Positions 5,602-20,569 of a stretch of 20,608 bases of DNA are shown here, piece after piece (the first letter of the stretch is position 1; each line of letters starts with the position of its first letter). The notes below the pieces were generated by a model. That model saw nothing but the letters and a program-made list of their open reading frames with translations, made no database searches and had not been told where the DNA came from. A program made the position numbers and the translations under genes. The DNA comes from a virus: IMG/VR virus record IMGVR_UViG_3300029286_000951, positions 1 through 20,608 of that record; one strand, written 5' to 3'.

Positions 5602-6134
5602 TTACCTCCGACTAGCTTGTGAAGCATTCCAGCGATTTTCTTTAGCCTCTTCGTCGAGATAAATTAGACAAGTTTCTAAGAATTTAGGATCTTCATTTAA
5701 TAATGTTTCCCTTGTATATCCTTGTAATGTTCTTAACAATCCAAGAATAACAAATTCTTCTGGAACATCATCAGCACTTGTTATTCCGCCTTTTATTAAT
5801 TCTCTGGCTATGCCTCTGATGTCTCTGCTAAAGGGTTTTGTGGATTCACTGCACTGAATATCCCTTCTGTAAGTTCTTTAATAATAGAAGGCGATAATTC
5901 ATCCAATAATTCTACACTCCATTTAACTTCGCCATTATCATCTTCTAATCCACTAACTGCGATAACACAATCTTTAATTACTTTTTCCATGAAGTCAATC
6001 TGTGCTTCTGAATCGCCTTCATCAATCTTAGATTGTTCCTTAGCAATTTGTCTATACTTTCCCCAACTCAATTTAACATCAAATGTTAAATCTTCTACTT
6101 TCACTTTTGTCACATTTAAACTATTTAGTTTCAT
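5602..6134 (-). CDS. GT-type tail assembly chaperone made by -1 frameshift
   Basis: The short chaperone frame (ATG at 6134) can be extended by a -1 shift at the C_CCT_TTA heptamer at 5835-5829. After 102 zero-frame residues, ribosomes enter a frame open for 75 more codons, to a TAA at 5604-5602. The extension starts SRDIRGIARELIKGG and ends ENRWNASQASRR, giving a 177-residue fusion. The extension has no credible start of its own and abuts the tape measure gene. Its acidic, Leu-rich middle resembles T domains in character. This is the classic lambda G/GT arrangement, in which the minor fused product loads the tape measure for tube polymerisation. The frames and heptamer are read directly; the function is from family knowledge and position. 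Confidence 0.85.
5808..6134 (-). CDS. G-type tail assembly chaperone (unshifted product)
   Basis: A 108-residue acidic soluble protein starting MKLNSLNVTKVKVEDLTFDV and ending PLAETSEA. An upstream in-frame GTG at 6167 is possible, but GGGAGG lies 6 bases before the ATG at 6134, which I prefer. The start overlaps the end of the upstream methyltransferase-glycosyltransferase by 14 bases, so the two are probably translationally coupled. It is the abundant product of the G/GT pair; the fusion form comes from the slip site near its end. Size, charge, position before the tape measure and the -1 extension make the role likely even without a named sequence family. Confidence 0.85.
   Translation of the reverse strand: MKLNSLNVTKVKVEDLTFDVKLSWGKYRQIAKEQSKIDEGDSEAQIDFMEKVIKDCVIAVSGLEDDNGEVKWSVELLDELSPSIIKELTEGIFSAVNPQNPLAETSEA
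5829..5835 (-). other. Programmed -1 frameshift slippery site C_CCT_TTA
   Basis: Read on the minus strand, the heptamer is C CCU UUA in the zero frame of the chaperone gene. It fits X XXY YYZ exactly: both tRNAs re-pair fully at the first two codon positions after slipping to CCC UUU. It lies 6 codons before the zero-frame stop (TAG, 5810-5808), and the -1 frame is open up to the tape measure gene. I saw no strong stem-loop just downstream, only a short GGC/GCC hairpin, so stimulation may be weak or of another kind. Confidence 0.8.
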
Positions 6135-7527
6135 TTTTGTCCTCCCAGGACGGTGAAGTATCACCATATTTTTCTTGTAAAAGTTTTAAATTCTTTTCTA
6201 ATAATGCATTAGGATTTTCTAATGTATTCATTGTTATACTACCAGCGTGATGAACGAAAGAACCACCAATTATTAAATTCTTATATCCTTTCATATTACT
6301 TCTAATACACCAATCATCATCGTCACACATTCCTAATCCAAACCTTTCATCCATTCCACCAACATCTTCTACAAATTCTTTAGTAATCATCATACAGAAA
6401 CCAATTAATCTTTCAGTTTCTACAATTTGTTCATATCTTTTAATCTGTTCATCCCATGCCCAACCCATCATATCTTTATTATTTGTATATCCAACTGGTA
6501 TTTTCTGATAACCACTAATATTATTACATAATGGACCAACTATTCCAGCCTTTTCAACACCTATAAGAACATCAATCATTCTATCAGCAAAACCTTCAGG
6601 AAATATAACATCATTATTAGATAATAAAATTAAATCTCCAGTTGCTTTATCTAATCCTTGATTAACTGCCTTAATCCATCCTAAGTTCTCCTCATTTCTA
6701 TATACAATAACACCATTGGCTTCGCACCACTCTTTAGTGCCATCTATGCTTCCATTATCTATAACTATAATTTCATTATCTATATGTATTAATGCTTTTT
6801 TCAATGAATTAATGGCTTTTTGCGTATATTCTAATTGATTCCAACAAGGCATAACCACTGATAATTTCTTGTCTCTACGATTGGCTCTAACGGCTCTACA
6901 AACATACTGATAGGTGTAATACTCTATTAACTCTGCCCTATCGTTACAGCCAATATGTAGCCTATTCTGATGCACTTCATTGCCATATTCAGGAACCTTT
7001 TCGCCTGGCAAGATTATAGCTTTCATTTCTTCTATTTTCCATCCTGCCCGCCACAACATTTTTTGCAATTCTCTTCTAGTAAATAAATGCTTATGAGTCT
7101 CATCTAATAATCCAGTATCAGAATATGTAAAATCACCATTTAATAATCCATCTACTACTGTCCAATGTCTATTATTTGGCACTGATATTACTATACTTCC
7201 ATCTTTCTTAATATTCATATGTATCTTATTTAGTAATTCTTCAGGATTATTTAAATGTTCTAATACATCTGCTAATATTATGCAGTCATACATATAATCT
7301 ATTTTATCAGTTTCAACATCTAAAATATCGAAATTATCTAAATTACTTTTAGCTTCTTTATAATATATAGCATTGTTATCTATACCAGACACGACACAAT
7401 CTCTTGACTGTTTTAAATTATAGCCAAGAGTACCTGAAGCACATCCAATATCTAAAATTGATTTAGCTTTTTCTGGAACTAAAGAAATCACATCATTACG
7501 ATTGTGATTGTGGTATTTGTTTTGCAT
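6121..7527 (-). CDS. Methyltransferase-glycosyltransferase family 2 fusion
   Basis: A 468-residue two-domain enzyme. Residues 1-215 are a class I SAM-dependent methyltransferase: motif I is ILDIGCASG (24-32), an acidic mid motif lies in YDCIILADVLEHL (80-92), and VISVPNNRHW (113-122) is typical of the UbiE/COQ5-like fold. Residues 220-450 are a GT-A family 2 transferase: LSVVMPCWNQ (222-231), IIVIDNGSIDGT (253-264), the metal-binding SNND (303-306), and GGMDERFGLGMCDDDDW (390-406) with a later His427. It would transfer a sugar from a nucleotide-sugar and perhaps methylate it. The gene sits between tail tube and tail chaperone, an odd place for an enzyme, which suggests a moron modifying virion protein glycans or host surface polymer. 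GGGAGG precedes the ATG, a few bases from a long hairpin. Substrate unknown. Confidence 0.9.
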   Translation of the reverse strand: MQNKYHNHNRNDVISLVPEKAKSILDIGCASGTLGYNLKQSRDCVVSGIDNNAIYYKEAKSNLDNFDILDVETDKIDYMYDCIILADVLEHLNNPEELLNKIHMNIKKDGSIVISVPNNRHWTVVDGLLNGDFTYSDTGLLDETHKHLFTRRELQKMLWRAGWKIEEMKAIILPGEKVPEYGNEVHQNRLHIGCNDRAELIEYYTYQYVCRAVRANRRDKKLSVVMPCWNQLEYTQKAINSLKKALIHIDNEIIVIDNGSIDGTKEWCEANGVIVYRNEENLGWIKAVNQGLDKATGDLILLSNNDVIFPEGFADRMIDVLIGVEKAGIVGPLCNNISGYQKIPVGYTNNKDMMGWAWDEQIKRYEQIVETERLIGFCMMITKEFVEDVGGMDERFGLGMCDDDDWCIRSNMKGYKNLIIGGSFVHHAGSITMNTLENPNALLEKNLKLLQEKYGDTSPSWEDKNETK

Positions 7528-9601: not shown

Positions 9602-10018
9602 CTAAAAAGTAGGATATCTTTCGATATGCATATTACTTCTTATTTCACCTTGGTCATTAACTGCTACACCAGGCCATTGCACATATAATTCAGCAGTTCC
9701 ATCTGCTATTGATCTTAGCCATTTAATAATTCTATCATATTCTCTTTCCCAATAGCTTTCGTCTATATCCTGTGGAGCTAATGTTGCATTACTACCAGTT
9801 ATATTATGAATAGCGATAATAGCTACTGCATATTTCAATTCTTCTGGAGCATTTCCACCATCCCACGCAGTAAAGAATTGTCTATATTTACCTAAATAAG
9901 ATGAAGCAATTCCAGTTGCTGAAGTAATATAATTATCAAGAGTTCCATTGCATCTTTTCATCCAATTTTCGAAATCCTGAAGGTTCATTCTTATGTTAAT
10001 TTCCTGACACCACTGCAT
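9602..10018 (-). CDS. Head-tail connector / adaptor (Mu gp36-like, DUF1320 type)
   Basis: A 138-residue protein, mostly helical in its first two thirds, with EELKYAVAIIAIHNITGSN in the middle, YWEREYDRIIKWLRSIADGTAEL next and a short strand-rich tail ending NMHIERYPTF. Helical bundle plus the W-x-R-A/S-I-A-x-G motif resembles adaptor proteins that dock under the portal. The start MQWCQEINIRM is chosen because GGAGG lies 6 bases upstream; an internal ATG at 9988 has a poorer site. The first codons overlap the 3' end of the glycosyltransferase-TPR gene by 23 bases. Call based on length, motif and position between capsid and tail completion genes. Confidence 0.65.
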   Translation of the reverse strand: MQWCQEINIRMNLQDFENWMKRCNGTLDNYITSATGIASSYLGKYRQFFTAWDGGNAPEELKYAVAIIAIHNITGSNATLAPQDIDESYWEREYDRIIKWLRSIADGTAELYVQWPGVAVNDQGEIRSNMHIERYPTF

Positions 10019-11141
10019 TTTCTTCCTCCTTTGAATAATTAATAATCATTTTCCATAAATTATTAAATTTTTCCCTTTCTCCACCAACTTCTATAGCCTT
10101 TCCTAACCAAGCTGCTGCTTTTAACATATCGCCATTATTAAAATATAATAGAGCTAAAGCATAATAGGCTAACGCACCACATTTTTCAGGATTGCTAATA
10201 CCAGCTTGTTTAACTATAGGAACACTTCCAGCAGATATAGCCATTTTTAGGTAAAATTCAGCATTATCCATATCACCTAAATTAAGACTATCTCCACCAA
10301 TATCGAAACAAGCTTCACCAAATTCTTCACTTCCTAATAGAAGTTTCTTCATAGATACTTCTCTTGCTTCTTTATTCTTACCTAATAATCTTAGACATAT
10401 AGCCCATTTATCTAAAATCATTGATTCCATTCCAGCTTGTGTATTAGGTAAATCTAATGACTTTTCGCACCAAGTAATAGCAGAACCATATTCTTTATTA
10501 GATTGTAAGGCATCTGCTAAATAATAACAAGATCGTTTATCTTGAAATTCATTATAATCTGCTACTAATGCATCTAAATCTTTCTTCAATTTTTCATTAG
10601 CTTCTACTACTTCTGGTTTCTGAGATTTCTTATGTCCTATTACTATTTGTGAAGCATTAACTCTTGAAACATTGGCAGGAACTACTTCGTGGCGTCTTCG
10701 TTCATATCTAATACCTCTTTTCATAATCTTAACATTAAGCCAGCTTCCTGGAGTAACATCTGGATTAATTGGAAAATCAGTAAGCATAACTGATATACCA
10801 CCACAATCATTTTCTTCTGCTAATTTAAAGGCTGGTTCTAATGCATCTTTACCAGATAAAAACCATTCATCTGCATCTAACCATAGAAACCACTCTTTAT
10901 CTGAATTAGCTTCTACTTGCTCCATAACATAATTTCTTGTATCTGCCCAAGAATTATTTAGAAATTCGTGCTCATATAAATTAGCACCAAGTTCTTTAGC
11001 TACGTTGTATGTATTATCAGTTGTTTTCTTATCAATAGAAATATGGATTTCATTTGTAATATTTTTAAGTGAATTAACCAATCTTTCTATTATATTATCT
11101 TCATTACAAGCCATTGCTATTACTGCTAAATTATTAATCAT
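9996..11141 (-). CDS. Glycosyltransferase family 2 with TPR tail
   Basis: A 381-residue enzyme. Residues 1-170 are a GT-A family 2 core: LAVIAMACNEDNIIERLVNS (5-24), EIHISIDKKTTDNT (31-44), then the metal-binding DAD in WFLWLDADEW (84-93), and YERRRHEVVP (146-155). About 185-365 are helical repeats of TPR type, such as SCYYLADALQSNKEYGSAIT (204-223), the 290-303 repeat and ALAYYALALLYFNNGDM (323-339). This GT2-plus-TPR layout is known in Bacillota phages and bacteria. It lies in the middle of morphogenesis genes, between the HNH gene and the head-tail connector, and GGGAGG precedes the ATG. It may glycosylate a virion protein or an exposed host glycan; target unknown. No membrane helices, so probably cytoplasmic. 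Confidence 0.9.
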   Translation of the reverse strand: MINNLAVIAMACNEDNIIERLVNSLKNITNEIHISIDKKTTDNTYNVAKELGANLYEHEFLNNSWADTRNYVMEQVEANSDKEWFLWLDADEWFLSGKDALEPAFKLAEENDCGGISVMLTDFPINPDVTPGSWLNVKIMKRGIRYERRRHEVVPANVSRVNASQIVIGHKKSQKPEVVEANEKLKKDLDALVADYNEFQDKRSCYYLADALQSNKEYGSAITWCEKSLDLPNTQAGMESMILDKWAICLRLLGKNKEAREVSMKKLLLGSEEFGEACFDIGGDSLNLGDMDNAEFYLKMAISAGSVPIVKQAGISNPEKCGALAYYALALLYFNNGDMLKAAAWLGKAIEVGGEREKFNNLWKMIINYSKEEENAVVSGN

Positions 11142-11226: not shown

Positions 11227-11709
11227 TCATCCAGTTTTAATTATTCCAGTTATCTTTGTCCAAGTTCTACCAACTCTAATATGTCCTATTGTTGCTTGAC
11301 ATACTTTATAAATATTGGCTATATAACATTCAGATTTTCCTTCTTTTAATAGTTCTACTATTTCTAATACCTGATTGTTAGTTAGTTTAGATGAATGTTT
11401 TTCTCCGAATACATAATTATCTCTTTTTTTATCACGCATATTTTTCATATTGTCAAACTGCGTTCCTAGAAATAAATGATCTGGATTAACACAATTAGGA
11501 ATATCACAATGATGGCAAACATATAATTTTTCTGGTATAGTTCCATAGAATTGTTCATATGATATTCTATGTGCTTTTTTACCTTTCTTATTAATTTTTA
11601 CCATCCCATATCCATCTTTATTACATGAACCTTTCCATAACCAACATCCATCTTCCTGTTTTTCAACCTTACTCCAAAAATCTCCATACTTTCCTGCAAT
11701 TTTTCCCAT
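11227..11709 (-). CDS. HNH homing endonuclease
   Basis: A 160-residue protein with the HNH_3 (NUMOD-associated) pattern: GCWLWKGSCNKDGYGMV (21-37), KKAHRISYEQFYGTIPE (44-60), LYVCHHCDIPNCVNPDHLFL (62-81) with the His pair and CVNPDHL, and LGTQFDNMKNMRDKKR (81-96). After this a linker GEKHSSKLTNNQV leads to a helix-turn-helix-like C-terminus (about 112-148, IANIYKVCQATIGHIRVGRTW), the usual DNA-binding end of phage HNH enzymes. AGGAGG precedes the ATG. It sits between the capsid and connector modules as an insert. These enzymes cut a related phage's DNA and copy themselves across. All key catalytic residues appear intact, so it is probably active. Confidence 0.93.
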   Translation of the reverse strand: MGKIAGKYGDFWSKVEKQEDGCWLWKGSCNKDGYGMVKINKKGKKAHRISYEQFYGTIPEKLYVCHHCDIPNCVNPDHLFLGTQFDNMKNMRDKKRDNYVFGEKHSSKLTNNQVLEIVELLKEGKSECYIANIYKVCQATIGHIRVGRTWTKITGIIKTG

Positions 11710-17382: not shown

Positions 17383-18672
17383 TTATCTCCTCGTAGTAAA
17401 TAATGATGCTCTGGCTGTTGTTGCTGTTTGAAATGATGTTACTGCATATCTAAGAGCATCTGGCCCATGATCATTACCTTCTGCTGGTTTATCCATCTTT
17501 ACTTTTCCTAATCTGTCCTGTGCCCAACAATAAGCATCAATTTCTGCTCTTAATTTAGGACAATCAGGTGATATCATCATTCCATTAGTCTGTGCAGCAG
17601 CTACAGATGTAATTCCTGGAATAATACTATTATCACCTTTAACAGCATTTAAATTAGCTCTTCTAAAAGCATCTATATTAGATGGTTCAGAAGGATCGCA
17701 ATAAAATGCTTCTATTCTATATTTATCTTGTAATTTCTTAGCAATACTAATCCAAGAATCTGAAGTATTATCAATTGCCCGCATCGTTTCATATTCTTCA
17801 TGCACAATCCATAATCTTCCATCAACAGTTTGCTGTACAATTACTATAACACCAGGATCAGTCCATCCCCAGTCAACACCAGCCACAGTTCTTTTTACCT
17901 GCAAATCTGGCGTTCCTACTTTAGAACTTAATCCTTGCCATATAACGCCTTCAAAACTAACAAATTCGCCATCTAATTCCTGTCTTGCAAAAGCACCAGT
18001 ATAAGCACTTCTTAATGATGTTACATAATCTGGACTTAAATAGATATTATGTTCTGTAGAACACTTAAATAATTGATAATTATAATCATCAACTAAATTA
18101 ATTTCATTAATATCCTGTTTTAATTGGAATGTTCTATATAGCCAATTCTTACCTCTTGGAGTTGTTGTTACCCATCCACCAGTAGGAAATCTAGGATCTC
18201 TAATTCTTCCTTGTAATATCTGAAATGCTTCACCATTAGTTTGTCCGCCTTCATCTAATCCAAAATAAGATAAATTAGGACCTCTTAAAGAGTCTGGATC
18301 ACCAGCTTGTCCAAAGAACAACATAGAACCATTAACAAATTCTGCTACCATATCTGTCTTATTATAATTTAATAGAAATCCATCAGATAATCTACATTGT
18401 TCTTGGAACTCTATAAGAATTGATTTTTTGAGCTGAACAAGAGTAGGTGATACTATAATTCCTCTACAGCCTGGATAAGTTGCTGCCCACCTAAGACTTT
18501 CCATTACATTAGCTAAAGACTTTCCACTTCCTATTCCACCAACATAAGCTCTAAATCTTTTATTAGAAGCTTTCAATTCTGGAGTAATAGGACACATCCC
18601 ATTATCGTGAAATAAACGCTGAGATGGTAATGGATTGTATTTAGGACCAATTGTTATAGTTTTAGTAGACAT
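17383..18672 (-). CDS. Terminase large subunit (ATPase-nuclease)
   Basis: From the start chosen at 18672 the protein has 429 residues. The ATPase has Walker A GGIGSGKS (45-52), Walker B LSYFGLDE (134-141) and the coupling motif TTTPRGK (169-175). The RuvC-like nuclease has acidic residues in VAGVDWGWTDPG (263-274, D267), FYCDPSEP (323-330, D326) and NDHGPDALRYA (400-410, D402/D405). It packages DNA into proheads and makes the packaging cuts. Upstream starts exist (ATG 18690, TTG 18702) but none has a ribosome binding site. The ATG at 18672 overlaps the stop of the 24-aa ORF in ATGTCTACTAA, so coupled translation is the best explanation. The motifs are independent of that choice. Confidence 0.95.
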   Translation of the reverse strand: MSTKTITIGPKYNPLPSQRLFHDNGMCPITPELKASNKRFRAYVGGIGSGKSLANVMESLRWAATYPGCRGIIVSPTLVQLKKSILIEFQEQCRLSDGFLLNYNKTDMVAEFVNGSMLFFGQAGDPDSLRGPNLSYFGLDEGGQTNGEAFQILQGRIRDPRFPTGGWVTTTPRGKNWLYRTFQLKQDINEINLVDDYNYQLFKCSTEHNIYLSPDYVTSLRSAYTGAFARQELDGEFVSFEGVIWQGLSSKVGTPDLQVKRTVAGVDWGWTDPGVIVIVQQTVDGRLWIVHEEYETMRAIDNTSDSWISIAKKLQDKYRIEAFYCDPSEPSNIDAFRRANLNAVKGDNSIIPGITSVAAAQTNGMMISPDCPKLRAEIDAYCWAQDRLGKVKMDKPAEGNDHGPDALRYAVTSFQTATTARASLFTTRR

Positions 18673-18740: not shown

Positions 18741-19139
18741 TTACTCCGAGTTATTAACGACAGTTGGCACCTGGATTATGACCTGATTAACATTTTCAGG
18801 ATTAACTGAAACTAATCTATCTAAGATTTCTTGAGCAGCTTTAACAGCGTGTGGCTTTCCTGAGTCCATTGCCTTTTCAAGTGTTTTCCAAGCTTTAGCT
18901 ATAATACCATTACTGGTAATTTCTTTAATATATTCATCAACCAAAATTTTATATTCTGGCGTTTTCATATAATTATTTACTGTAGGACGACTAACGCCAA
19001 CTTCTTCTGCTATCTTAGATATTGATAATCCACGATCAACATTACATTCCAATATTCTTTGCATAATACCTAACTTCTTAGCACTAACATTATATAGTTT
19101 AGGAATTATTTCTTTTTTTTCTTCTTCTGTTAAGTTCAT
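18741..19139 (-). CDS. Terminase small subunit (putative)
   Basis: From the ATG at 19139 the protein has 132 residues. It contains a helix-turn-helix (about 39-58, SISKIAEEVGVSRPTVNNYM) after a helical N-terminus, a middle helix KILVDEYIKEITSNGIIAKA, and AVKAAQEILDRLVS near 98-111. DNA-binding HTH plus oligomerisation helices is the small terminase plan, and it lies directly before the large subunit, separated only by the 24-aa ORF. Upstream starts (ATG 19151, ATG 19193) are possible. The 19151 ATG abuts GGAG with no spacing, while the 19139 ATG has 12 bases. The start overlaps the zinc-ribbon gene by about 41 bases. The HTH shows a role in recognising phage DNA; other regulators could look alike. 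Confidence 0.8.
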   Translation of the reverse strand: MNLTEEEKKEIIPKLYNVSAKKLGIMQRILECNVDRGLSISKIAEEVGVSRPTVNNYMKTPEYKILVDEYIKEITSNGIIAKAWKTLEKAMDSGKPHAVKAAQEILDRLVSVNPENVNQVIIQVPTVVNNSE

Positions 19140-19275
19140 TATATTTTTCATCTCCAACATGAGAATTACAAGATGGACATACTTTATCCACACCTATGTC
19201 TTCTTTGTTCCATTCTTTTCCGCACCAATTGCATTTATATTTCTTTCTTATACTATAAGGATTGTTATTCATCAT
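19099..19275 (-). CDS. Small zinc-ribbon protein
   Basis: A 58-residue frame from the ATG at 19275, MMNNNPYSIRKKYKCNWCGK onward. Two knuckles, C15-x2-C18 (CNWC) and C33-x2-C36 (CPSC), form a zinc ribbon, and the tail is very basic (NRRRKKRNNS). The start overlaps the stop of the sigma region 2-like gene (AATGATGAATAA), so it is probably coupled to it; I see no separate binding site. Its own end overlaps the small terminase start. Zinc ribbons of this kind can bind nucleic acid or proteins such as RNA polymerase, but nothing here fixes the partner. The upstream in-frame ATG at 19335 lies inside the sigma-like gene and has no support. Confidence 0.75.
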   Translation of the reverse strand: MMNNNPYSIRKKYKCNWCGKEWNKEDIGVDKVCPSCNSHVGDEKYNELNRRRKKRNNS

Positions 19276-19564
19276 TTTCACATAATGGCTCATGGATATA
19301 TTTGCTTGCTCTTCTGATATGATTAAATGCTGCATTGTGAGCTAATGTTCTGATATAAGCTCTGGTGCAATTATCCATACCTAATCCAATATCTTCTATT
19401 TTATTAATATGTTCATATTTTTCCCATATTCTAATACATATAACTTGGACTATATCATCAATCTCACAGAATCTTGGACAGATATTCCATGCTTTCTTAG
19501 CCTCTCCCAAAATTGTAGAATAATATTTTTTAATTATATTATCATATTCATTAACACTATTCAT
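19265..19564 (-). CDS. Sigma-70 region 2-like protein
   Basis: A 99-residue protein, MNSVNEYDNIIKKYYSTILG onward. CPRFCEIDDIVQVICIRIWE (29-48) matches the region 2.1-2.2 core-binding pattern (L/I-D-D-L-V-Q-x-x-x-x-x-W), and RAYIRTLAHNAAFNHIRRAS (68-87) matches region 2.3-2.4, which melts and reads -10 DNA. There is no region 3 or 4; the protein ends soon after. The ATG at 19564 overlaps the stop of the region 4-like gene; a GTG at 19573 is an alternative. It probably binds RNA polymerase as half of a sigma factor, with the previous gene supplying the other half. Similarity is by motif only. Confidence 0.75.
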   Translation of the reverse strand: MNSVNEYDNIIKKYYSTILGEAKKAWNICPRFCEIDDIVQVICIRIWEKYEHINKIEDIGLGMDNCTRAYIRTLAHNAAFNHIRRASKYIHEPLCENDE

Positions 19565-19898
19565 TATTATCACACAATATACATATGATATTATTTTCCG
19601 CTCGTTTAATAATTTCCGATATAACTTGCTGACTTTTGTTTCTATTAGTAGCTATATCGAATTGTGTATTCTTACTATACCATCTATCTTTAGCAATAAT
19701 AGCATCATATTCATCTAACTTAGATATTGCATATTCTAAATCTAATACTATTTCTATCATATCATTAGTATTATAGACTAATTTCTGATAATCTATATTG
19801 AAACTACTTGGAATACCATAATTATATAATATTTCTTTAATTTCGCGATATGAATTAAGAGCTTGTTTTACTTTCGTTGGATTCCACCATGACTTCAT
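19557..19898 (-). CDS. Sigma-70 region 4-like HTH protein
   Basis: A 113-residue protein. The C-terminal half reads as sigma region 4: LEYAISKLDEYDAIIAKDRW (54-73), then TQFDIATNRNKSQQVISEII (78-97) followed by KRAEN. The HTH aligns without gaps to the canonical pattern T-Q-x-E-I-A-x-x-x-x-x-S-Q-x-x-V-S-x-I-x-K-R-A. The first 50 residues are helical and carry no region 2. It precedes the region 2-like gene and overlaps it by 8 bases, so the two halves are made together but in reversed order. AAGGAG lies 10 bases before the ATG. It may bind -35 DNA or act as an RNA polymerase co-activator. A generic phage RinA/ArpU-like regulator is the main alternative, since these share the region 4 HTH. Confidence 0.65.
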   Translation of the reverse strand: MKSWWNPTKVKQALNSYREIKEILYNYGIPSSFNIDYQKLVYNTNDMIEIVLDLEYAISKLDEYDAIIAKDRWYSKNTQFDIATNRNKSQQVISEIIKRAENNIICILCDNNE

Positions 19899-19998
19899 TC
19901 TGCTTTTTCTCCTTGTTTGTTATCCAAACTGATTTAGGACGTTTCTTGCCACGAAATTTAGATTGCCTTCTGGCTCGTCCATCATCTTCTTTATTCAT
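19855..19998 (-). CDS. Small basic protein (47 aa), unknown function
   Basis: A 47-residue frame, MNKEDDGRARRQSKFRGKKR through NESKTSS, with GGAGG 10 bases before the ATG. It is the first gene after the intergenic region holding the octamer array, so it opens the transcript carrying the sigma-like and terminase genes. It overlaps the start of the region 4-like gene by 44 bases, and that gene's binding site lies in its codons. The many Arg/Lys residues suggest nucleic-acid contact. I recognise no family. The strong ribosome binding site and tight overlap argue it is real. Confidence 0.65.
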   Translation of the reverse strand: MNKEDDGRARRQSKFRGKKRPKSVWITNKEKKQNEVMVESNESKTSS

Positions 19999-20042
19999 AA
20001 TTAATTATCCTCCTATATAATACCTGCTTTTTAATATTTACT

Positions 20043-20125
20043 ATTTTCTTACCTATTTCTTACTAGTTTTGTCATATATTATTCATATAATTCACATTTT
20101 CTTACTTCTTTCTTACTAGTTTGTT
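20043..20125 (-). repeat. Paired direct repeats carrying four GTAAGAAA octamers
   Basis: Two ~30-bp units (20043-20073 and 20096-20125) share CTAGTAAGAAA...GTAAGAAAAT read on the minus strand. Each holds two GTAAGAAA octamers, plus-strand tttcttac at 20045, 20056, 20098 and 20109. Spacing within pairs is 11 bp and between the units 53 bp, so all four sit nearly on one face of the helix. They lie before the first gene of the sigma/terminase operon. They are probable binding sites for a regulator or phage sigma factor; iterons of an origin are another option. Confidence 0.7.
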
Positions 20126-20156
20126 AAGTTAAAATCGTACATTTATTTGTATAATA

Positions 20157-20178
20157 AAGGGACTTCCCATGTCCCCTT
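20157..20178 (-). terminator. Terminator-like hairpin after the 78-aa gene
   Basis: On the minus strand AAGGGGAC and GTCCCTT pair around a 7-base loop with a single bulged base, followed by TTATTATA. It may end transcription of the upstream gene before the octamer array. The stem is short and the U-run interrupted, so strength is doubtful. Confidence 0.4.
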
Positions 20179-20264
20179 ATAAGATACTATAAGTATATAG
20201 TTAAAGATACTTCATAGAATCAACCCCTCATAAAATTAAAATCGAAATTAATACTGTTACATGA

Positions 20265-20297
20265 TTTGAATCAATCTGCCGTTTAGATTGATTCGAA
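20265..20297. repeat. 13-bp stem-loop
   Basis: Arms 20265-20277 and 20285-20297 pair over 13 positions (one T.G wobble in plus-strand RNA), around a 7-base loop, centred on GAATCAATCT/AGATTGATTC. No U-run follows on either strand. Possible regulator binding site or RNA stability element. Confidence 0.55.
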
Positions 20298-20332
20298 GCA
20301 CATCGTAGCGTAAGCGAAGATGAATAAACCAT

Positions 20333-20569
20333 TTAAGAATCCTTGAAATAATCTGGATAATTTAAAGTTAGGTAATAATATCCATCTAAAGATTTAATCA
20401 ATGCATCATATTCAATAATTGTGACAAGATATTCTTTCTTCTTGGTTAATTCGTACATATTATGAACATTATTGTAAGTATCTACAATTTCATTATATAA
20501 ATCTACGAATCCTTCTATTTTTAACAGTTTTTTCTTATTGTTCTTATATCTAATTGAGTGGACTTTCAT
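20333..20569 (-). CDS. Unknown small protein (78 aa)
   Basis: A 78-residue frame, MKVHSIRYKNNKKKLLKIEG onward, with AGGAG 5 bases before the ATG. It starts very basic and turns into acidic, Tyr-rich helical sequence (about 22-75, ending NYPDYFKDS). No membrane segment or Cys motif. It lies upstream of the long intergenic region, so it probably belongs to a different transcript, the end of an earlier operon. I recognise no family. Confidence 0.65.
   Translation of the reverse strand: MKVHSIRYKNNKKKLLKIEGFVDLYNEIVDTYNNVHNMYELTKKKEYLVTIIEYDALIKSLDGYYYLTLNYPDYFKDS

Follow-up and report, generated by a model that had tools for sequence, protein, structure and literature searches.

The window analyzed here, that is, the whole stretch of DNA under consideration, spans all 20,608 bp of one IMG/VR virus entry, which is probably a fragment. 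Its G+C content lies at about 31-40%, it contains no tRNA genes, and nearly all of its genes are carried by the minus strand. These minus-strand genes include those for the small and large terminase subunits (TerS and TerL), a portal of the Mu type (Portal_Mu, E 2.2e-33), MuF, capsid E, neck and tail proteins, and the tape measure. Two groups of genes stand amid the neck and tail genes: a methyltransferase and a family 2 glycosyltransferase at 6121-7527, and a family 2 glycosyltransferase plus TPR at 9996-11141. The presence of these sugar-modifying genes suggests glycosylation of the virion or of the host surface. Directly after the major capsid gene there is also a 160-aa ORF (11227-11709), HNH endonuclease-like by eye, which is a possible homing endonuclease.

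The features that concern us are the following, in the order in which the minus strand is read.

20154 to 20180, minus strand: a 10-bp hairpin (RNA fold, z -2.2).
20034 to 20122, minus strand: a direct repeat of 36 nt in two copies lying 53 bp apart, each copy carrying tandem (A/G)GTAAGAAA units.
19855 to 19998, minus strand: a basic 47-aa ORF (pI 10.3) with a strong AGGAGG Shine-Dalgarno sequence and a weak coding signal.
19557 to 19898, minus strand: a 113-aa protein with a helical N-terminal part and a region 4-like HTH (about residues 50-104), identified by sigma-family matches.
19265 to 19564, minus strand: a 99-aa protein with sigma region 2 (2.1-2.4) only, identified by PF04542, a 16-sigma profile, hhalign and its coding signal.
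19099 to 19275, minus strand: a 58-aa zinc-ribbon protein, CxxC...CxxC (Zn_ribbon_8, E 5e-4, below the cut-off).
18741 to 19139, minus strand: TerS (phrog_2538, terminase small subunit, E 9.3e-12).
17383 to 18672, minus strand: TerL (Terminase_3, E 2.1e-11; phrog_2, E 3.7e-45).

The first-pass annotation had described the 113-aa and 99-aa genes as a pair placed before the terminase, with a zinc-ribbon protein alongside, and the ORFs do lie in this arrangement. The string is tight: the region 4-like, region 2 and zinc-ribbon genes lead into TerS and then TerL, the zinc-ribbon gene shares 11 bp with the region 2 gene, and the start of TerS (19139) overlaps the zinc-ribbon gene. TerL is the first in a string of head and tail genes that reaches the left end of the window. 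Small Cys-rich, zinc-ribbon-like ORFs are also found directly upstream of TerS in two distant TerL relatives (L002:6381-6578 and L005:5782-6009).

Sigma factors direct RNA polymerase to the genes that it is to read, and almost all of them have regions 2 and 4 on one chain. The 99-aa protein (11.7 kDa) was said to hold region 2 only, and the profile searches agree. Sigma70_r2 (PF04542) matches residues 11-88 with E 1.3e-7 and 31.7 bits, above its cut-off of 24, and the model is covered almost end to end; comparison with region 2 columns by hhalign gives E 1.3e-5. The protein retains the core region 2 motifs DDIVQ, which is the core-binding motif, and AYIRTLAHN, as well as the AYIRTLAHNAAFNHIRR stretch of regions 2.3-2.4, and no region 4 model of Pfam, PHROG or NCBIfam matches it. 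Judged from these matches, the 99-aa protein consists of sigma region 2 alone.

The 113-aa protein (13.4 kDa, acidic, pI 5.2) presents a less decided picture. Its matches are almost all to sigma models, and always to their C-terminal region 4: in NCBIfam SigG (4.5e-4), SigF (8.9e-4), a further SigG model (TIGR02850, 1.8e-3) and ECF (2.4e-3), in PHROG a sigma family (E 1.6e-3), and in Pfam PF04545 (E 0.11, 12.5 bits). The alignment to region 4 is gapless over 53 columns and covers both r4.1 and r4.2. No sigma match was obtained for nine shuffles of the sequence or for its reversal; one shuffle reached 0.004, with an unrelated model. Every one of the region 4 matches nonetheless falls below the curated cut-offs, the best being the E of 4.5e-4. 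As a further comparison, the neighboring TerS, which has a real HTH, was aligned to the same region 4 columns and gave E 0.0015, versus 0.042 for the 113-aa protein. Unlike the 113-aa protein, whose matches are sigma-specific, TerS matches many unrelated HTH families. Since these columns accommodate the HTH of TerS no less well, the assignment of the 113-aa protein to sigma region 4, and to that region only, is no more than probable. Thus, of the earlier claim of a region 4-type HTH, the gapless alignment stands and is joined by the sigma specificity of the matches, while the identity itself is held at this lower strength; profile searches support region 2 above its cut-off and region 4 below all of them.

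We may calibrate these scores against known phage proteins. For region 4 the late sigma factor SPO1 gp34 scores 13.4 bits, against 12.5 bits here; for region 2 it scores 23.8 bits, against 31.7 bits here, and T4 gp55 scores 13.1 bits. The region scores of the pair are therefore close to those of a proven late sigma, gp34.

Both genes are real. By a codon-usage score trained on the large genes of the window, each ORF is the best of its six frames (0.126 versus at most -0.015 for the 99-aa ORF, and 0.17 versus at most 0.03 for the 113-aa ORF). The 8-base overlap noted at first pass is present, at 19557-19564. The 113-aa gene is preceded by the Shine-Dalgarno sequence AAGGAG, whereas the 99-aa gene starts inside the 113-aa gene (ATG at 19564, with a GTG at 19573 as the alternative) and has no Shine-Dalgarno sequence, as expected for coupled translation.

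It was also claimed that each protein lacks the half of a sigma factor that the other holds. An independent profile, for which 16 full-length sigma ORFs were taken from the phage collection, upholds this when run on the 143 ORFs of the window: the 99-aa protein ranks first (E 2.4e-4, model positions 10-78), the 113-aa protein ranks second (E 0.072, positions 99-151), and the two ORFs thereby cover complementary halves of one sigma profile, each without the other half. A normal sigma gene interrupted by a frameshift was considered and rejected, since the region 4 ORF comes first here and region 2 comes first in a normal sigma. A search of PDB sequences with the two proteins yielded no convincing match, and their single-sequence AlphaFold models (pLDDT 41.5 and 55.5) were too poor for fold searches to be informative.

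In order to gauge how unusual such a split is, we surveyed 17 loci, of which 16 had been picked out by searching 50,697 phage records for region 2; this is a sample rather than an exhaustive count, and the collection includes 'human fecal' records, some of them unverified and possibly bacterial. All 16 of the real sigma ORFs hold both regions in one ORF, and so the split is unusual. The seventeenth locus was a spurious, chance-level match to the 99-aa protein.

Relatives are scarce. For neither protein was a homologue found in IMG/VR or in the phage collection, where no match appeared at E up to 0.1 and only three and two chance-level matches, respectively for the two proteins, at E up to 10. 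Portal, capsid and TerS queries found no relatives in IMG/VR; TerL found distant ones, with 25-41% identity in the best matched segment. The region 2 domain occurs in none of the 50 TerL-related virus records, many of which are fragments, and no counterpart of the pair is visible upstream of TerS in L002 and L005, the two relatives inspected in detail. Among genome contigs there were five alphaproteobacterial matches, by TerL only, and we therefore assign no host. Within the window, a 78-aa ORF at 20333 bears a weak phmmer likeness to the 113-aa protein (E 1.6), which we take as chance.

Upstream of the pair, the 47-aa ORF overlaps the start of the 113-aa gene, matches no family, and is possibly the first gene of the operon. 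Beyond it, the stretch from 20000 to 20332 holds no convincing gene. A search of Rfam gave no match. The hairpin at 20154-20180 is a candidate terminator of upstream transcription. The window has no further copy of the 27-nt core of the direct repeats, shuffled sequences have none at all, and the exact repeat pattern is absent from the IMG/VR viral contigs; no late-promoter family is visible, the repeats being found in the window only upstream of the pair. The region as a whole looks like an operon control region, in which the repeats are a candidate operator or promoter region. Two precedents bear on their possible role: the Ltr protein of phage phi-13, whose late promoter is preceded by four direct repeats that are the proposed Ltr site (PMC13123087), and SigO-RsoA, which acts on its own operon (PMC8103513). 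Compared with these, the repeats are compatible with an Ltr-type site or with self-regulation of the SigO-RsoA type, and either would fit.

Given these observations, we put at about an even chance the reading in which the phage encodes, in this pair, a sigma factor of two subunits resembling SigO-RsoA, probably for late genes. The reading is supported by the strength and completeness of region 2, by the sigma specificity of the region 4 matches, by the complementarity of the halves, by scores near those of SPO1 gp34, by the 8-bp overlap with a second start that lacks a Shine-Dalgarno sequence, by a gene order and domain split like those of SigO-RsoA, and by the placement of late activators next to terS or the late promoter in other phages. 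It is weakened by the sub-threshold region 4 scores, by the fit of the TerS HTH to the same columns, by the failure to find any homologue, by the lack of region 2 in all 50 TerL-related records, and by the absence of a visible late-promoter family. Under such a scheme the 99-aa subunit, as sigma-2, would bind the clamp helices of beta-prime, where it would read and melt the -10 region, while the 113-aa subunit, as sigma-4, would be seated on the beta flap and would read DNA further upstream. Coupled translation of one message would supply the two subunits in matched amounts. The pair stands at the front of the operon for the terminase and the head and tail proteins, and from this position we infer that the holoenzyme would most likely drive the late genes; it may also drive its own operon by way of the repeat-bearing region upstream. 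A role as a late-gene switch is plausible on the strength of gene position.

The main rival explanation, which we regard as rather unlikely, holds that the 113-aa protein acts by itself as a late activator of the RinA/Ltr/ArpU type, recruiting the host sigma holoenzyme to a direct-repeat promoter, and that the 99-aa protein has a separate job, for example occupying the sigma-2 site on the clamp and so weakening host transcription. RinA and Ltr proteins measure about 130 aa, and in several phages late activators are encoded immediately upstream of terS or of the late promoter (PMC13123087); the position of the 113-aa gene directly ahead of the terminase genes fits a protein of this kind, as do the direct repeats upstream of the operon. 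However, the 113-aa protein matches no RinA, ArpU or Ltr model of Pfam, PHROG or NCBIfam at E up to 5, its acidity is at odds with the Ltrs, which are small basic proteins (PMC13123087), and its coupling to a region 2 protein would be left unexplained.

The weakness of the region 4 scores, together with the TerS HTH doing at least as well in the profile comparison, lends some weight to another explanation, that only the 99-aa protein is a sigma part, working in the manner of T4 gp55 with this or another partner, and that the 113-aa protein, small and either helical or HTH-bearing, is something other than sigma-4. T4 shows that the partner of a region 2 protein can do without an HTH that reads sequence (PMC2988020). 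We consider this improbable, as the matches of the 113-aa protein are sigma-specific and run gapless across r4.1 and the HTH, and as its shuffled controls produce no sigma match. Less probable again is that both ORFs are functionless remnants of a rearranged and decaying sigma gene: the pair is known from a single occurrence with no relatives found, as a remnant might be, but both ORFs are intact with the codon usage of the phage's own genes, the core region 2 motifs are kept, and the operon is tightly overlapping.

Several known systems resemble the proposed two-subunit sigma factor in part. GafA/GafYZ of gene transfer agents is likewise a phage-like late activator with a sigma-like HTH; GafA is a single gene in Rhodobacter and two genes elsewhere, GafY works with the host RpoD, and a canonical region 2 protein is not described (PMC9638019, PMC11150451). 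RinA, Ltr and ArpU, as well as Xpf of PBSX, share with the pair the position of a small regulator directly ahead of the terminase genes, and the Ltr promoter shares the upstream direct repeats. Unlike the pair, these systems lack a region 2 partner on a protein of its own; for Xpf, both sigma-2 and sigma-4 are listed (PMC10141391).

T4 gp33/gp55 and SPO1 gp33/gp34 are looser parallels. T4 gp55 (region 2) and gp33, a flap-binding mimic of sigma-4, are described as a split sigma (PMC2988020), and they resemble the proposed role of the pair in joining a region 2 protein to a flap-binding partner for phage late transcription. To this extent the parallel drawn at first pass holds. It is weakened in that gp33 recognizes no DNA sequence (PMC2988020), whereas the 113-aa protein probably has an HTH-like region 4, and in that about 109 kb of the T4 record separate genes 33 and 55, whereas the genes of the pair overlap; moreover, the activator in T4 is the sliding clamp gp45. 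SPO1 gp33 and gp34 are, like the pair, encoded by two small overlapping phage genes (4 bp), accessory first and sigma second. By profile, gp34 holds regions 2 and 4, whereas the 99-aa protein lacks region 4, and SPO1 gp33 has a family to itself, PF25742, whose model matches gp33 with E 1.9e-38 and does not match the 113-aa protein.

The closest known system, by gene order and domain split, is SigO-RsoA (YvrI-YvrHa) of Bacillus subtilis, and its citation as a two-part parallel was apt. Sigma-4 resides on SigO and sigma-2 on RsoA, and both proteins are required (PMC10028694). A table in PMC10141391 gives the domains differently; we keep to the assignment that two papers spell out. The sigma-4 gene is named first in the yvrI-yvrHa (sigO-rsoA) operon (PMC8103513), so that the reversed order remarked upon at first pass is correct, with region 4 first, but is not new. 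Both systems have a short region 2 protein (RsoA, 9.0 kDa, PMC10141391, versus 11.7 kDa), while SigO, at 22.5 kDa, is larger than the 113-aa protein. Neither of our proteins matches an NCBIfam family named SigO or RsoA at E up to 5. Unlike the phage pair, SigO-RsoA is a cellular acid-stress factor with its own regulon and without late-gene context. Among the papers searched, SigO-RsoA was the single clear example of a sigma factor made of two proteins in which sigma-4 reads DNA. It is possible, and we offer this more tentatively than the two-subunit reading itself, that the pair is a phage late sigma that couples a sigma-2 to a DNA-reading sigma-4 and dispenses with the host sigma, and is thus a counterpart of SigO-RsoA and perhaps its source. 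If so, this compact pair (99 and 113 aa) would give phage late genes a small switch with two inputs, would show that the sigma split exists in phages too and perhaps arose there, and would provide, beside SigO-RsoA, a second system in which to ask why sigma factors split.
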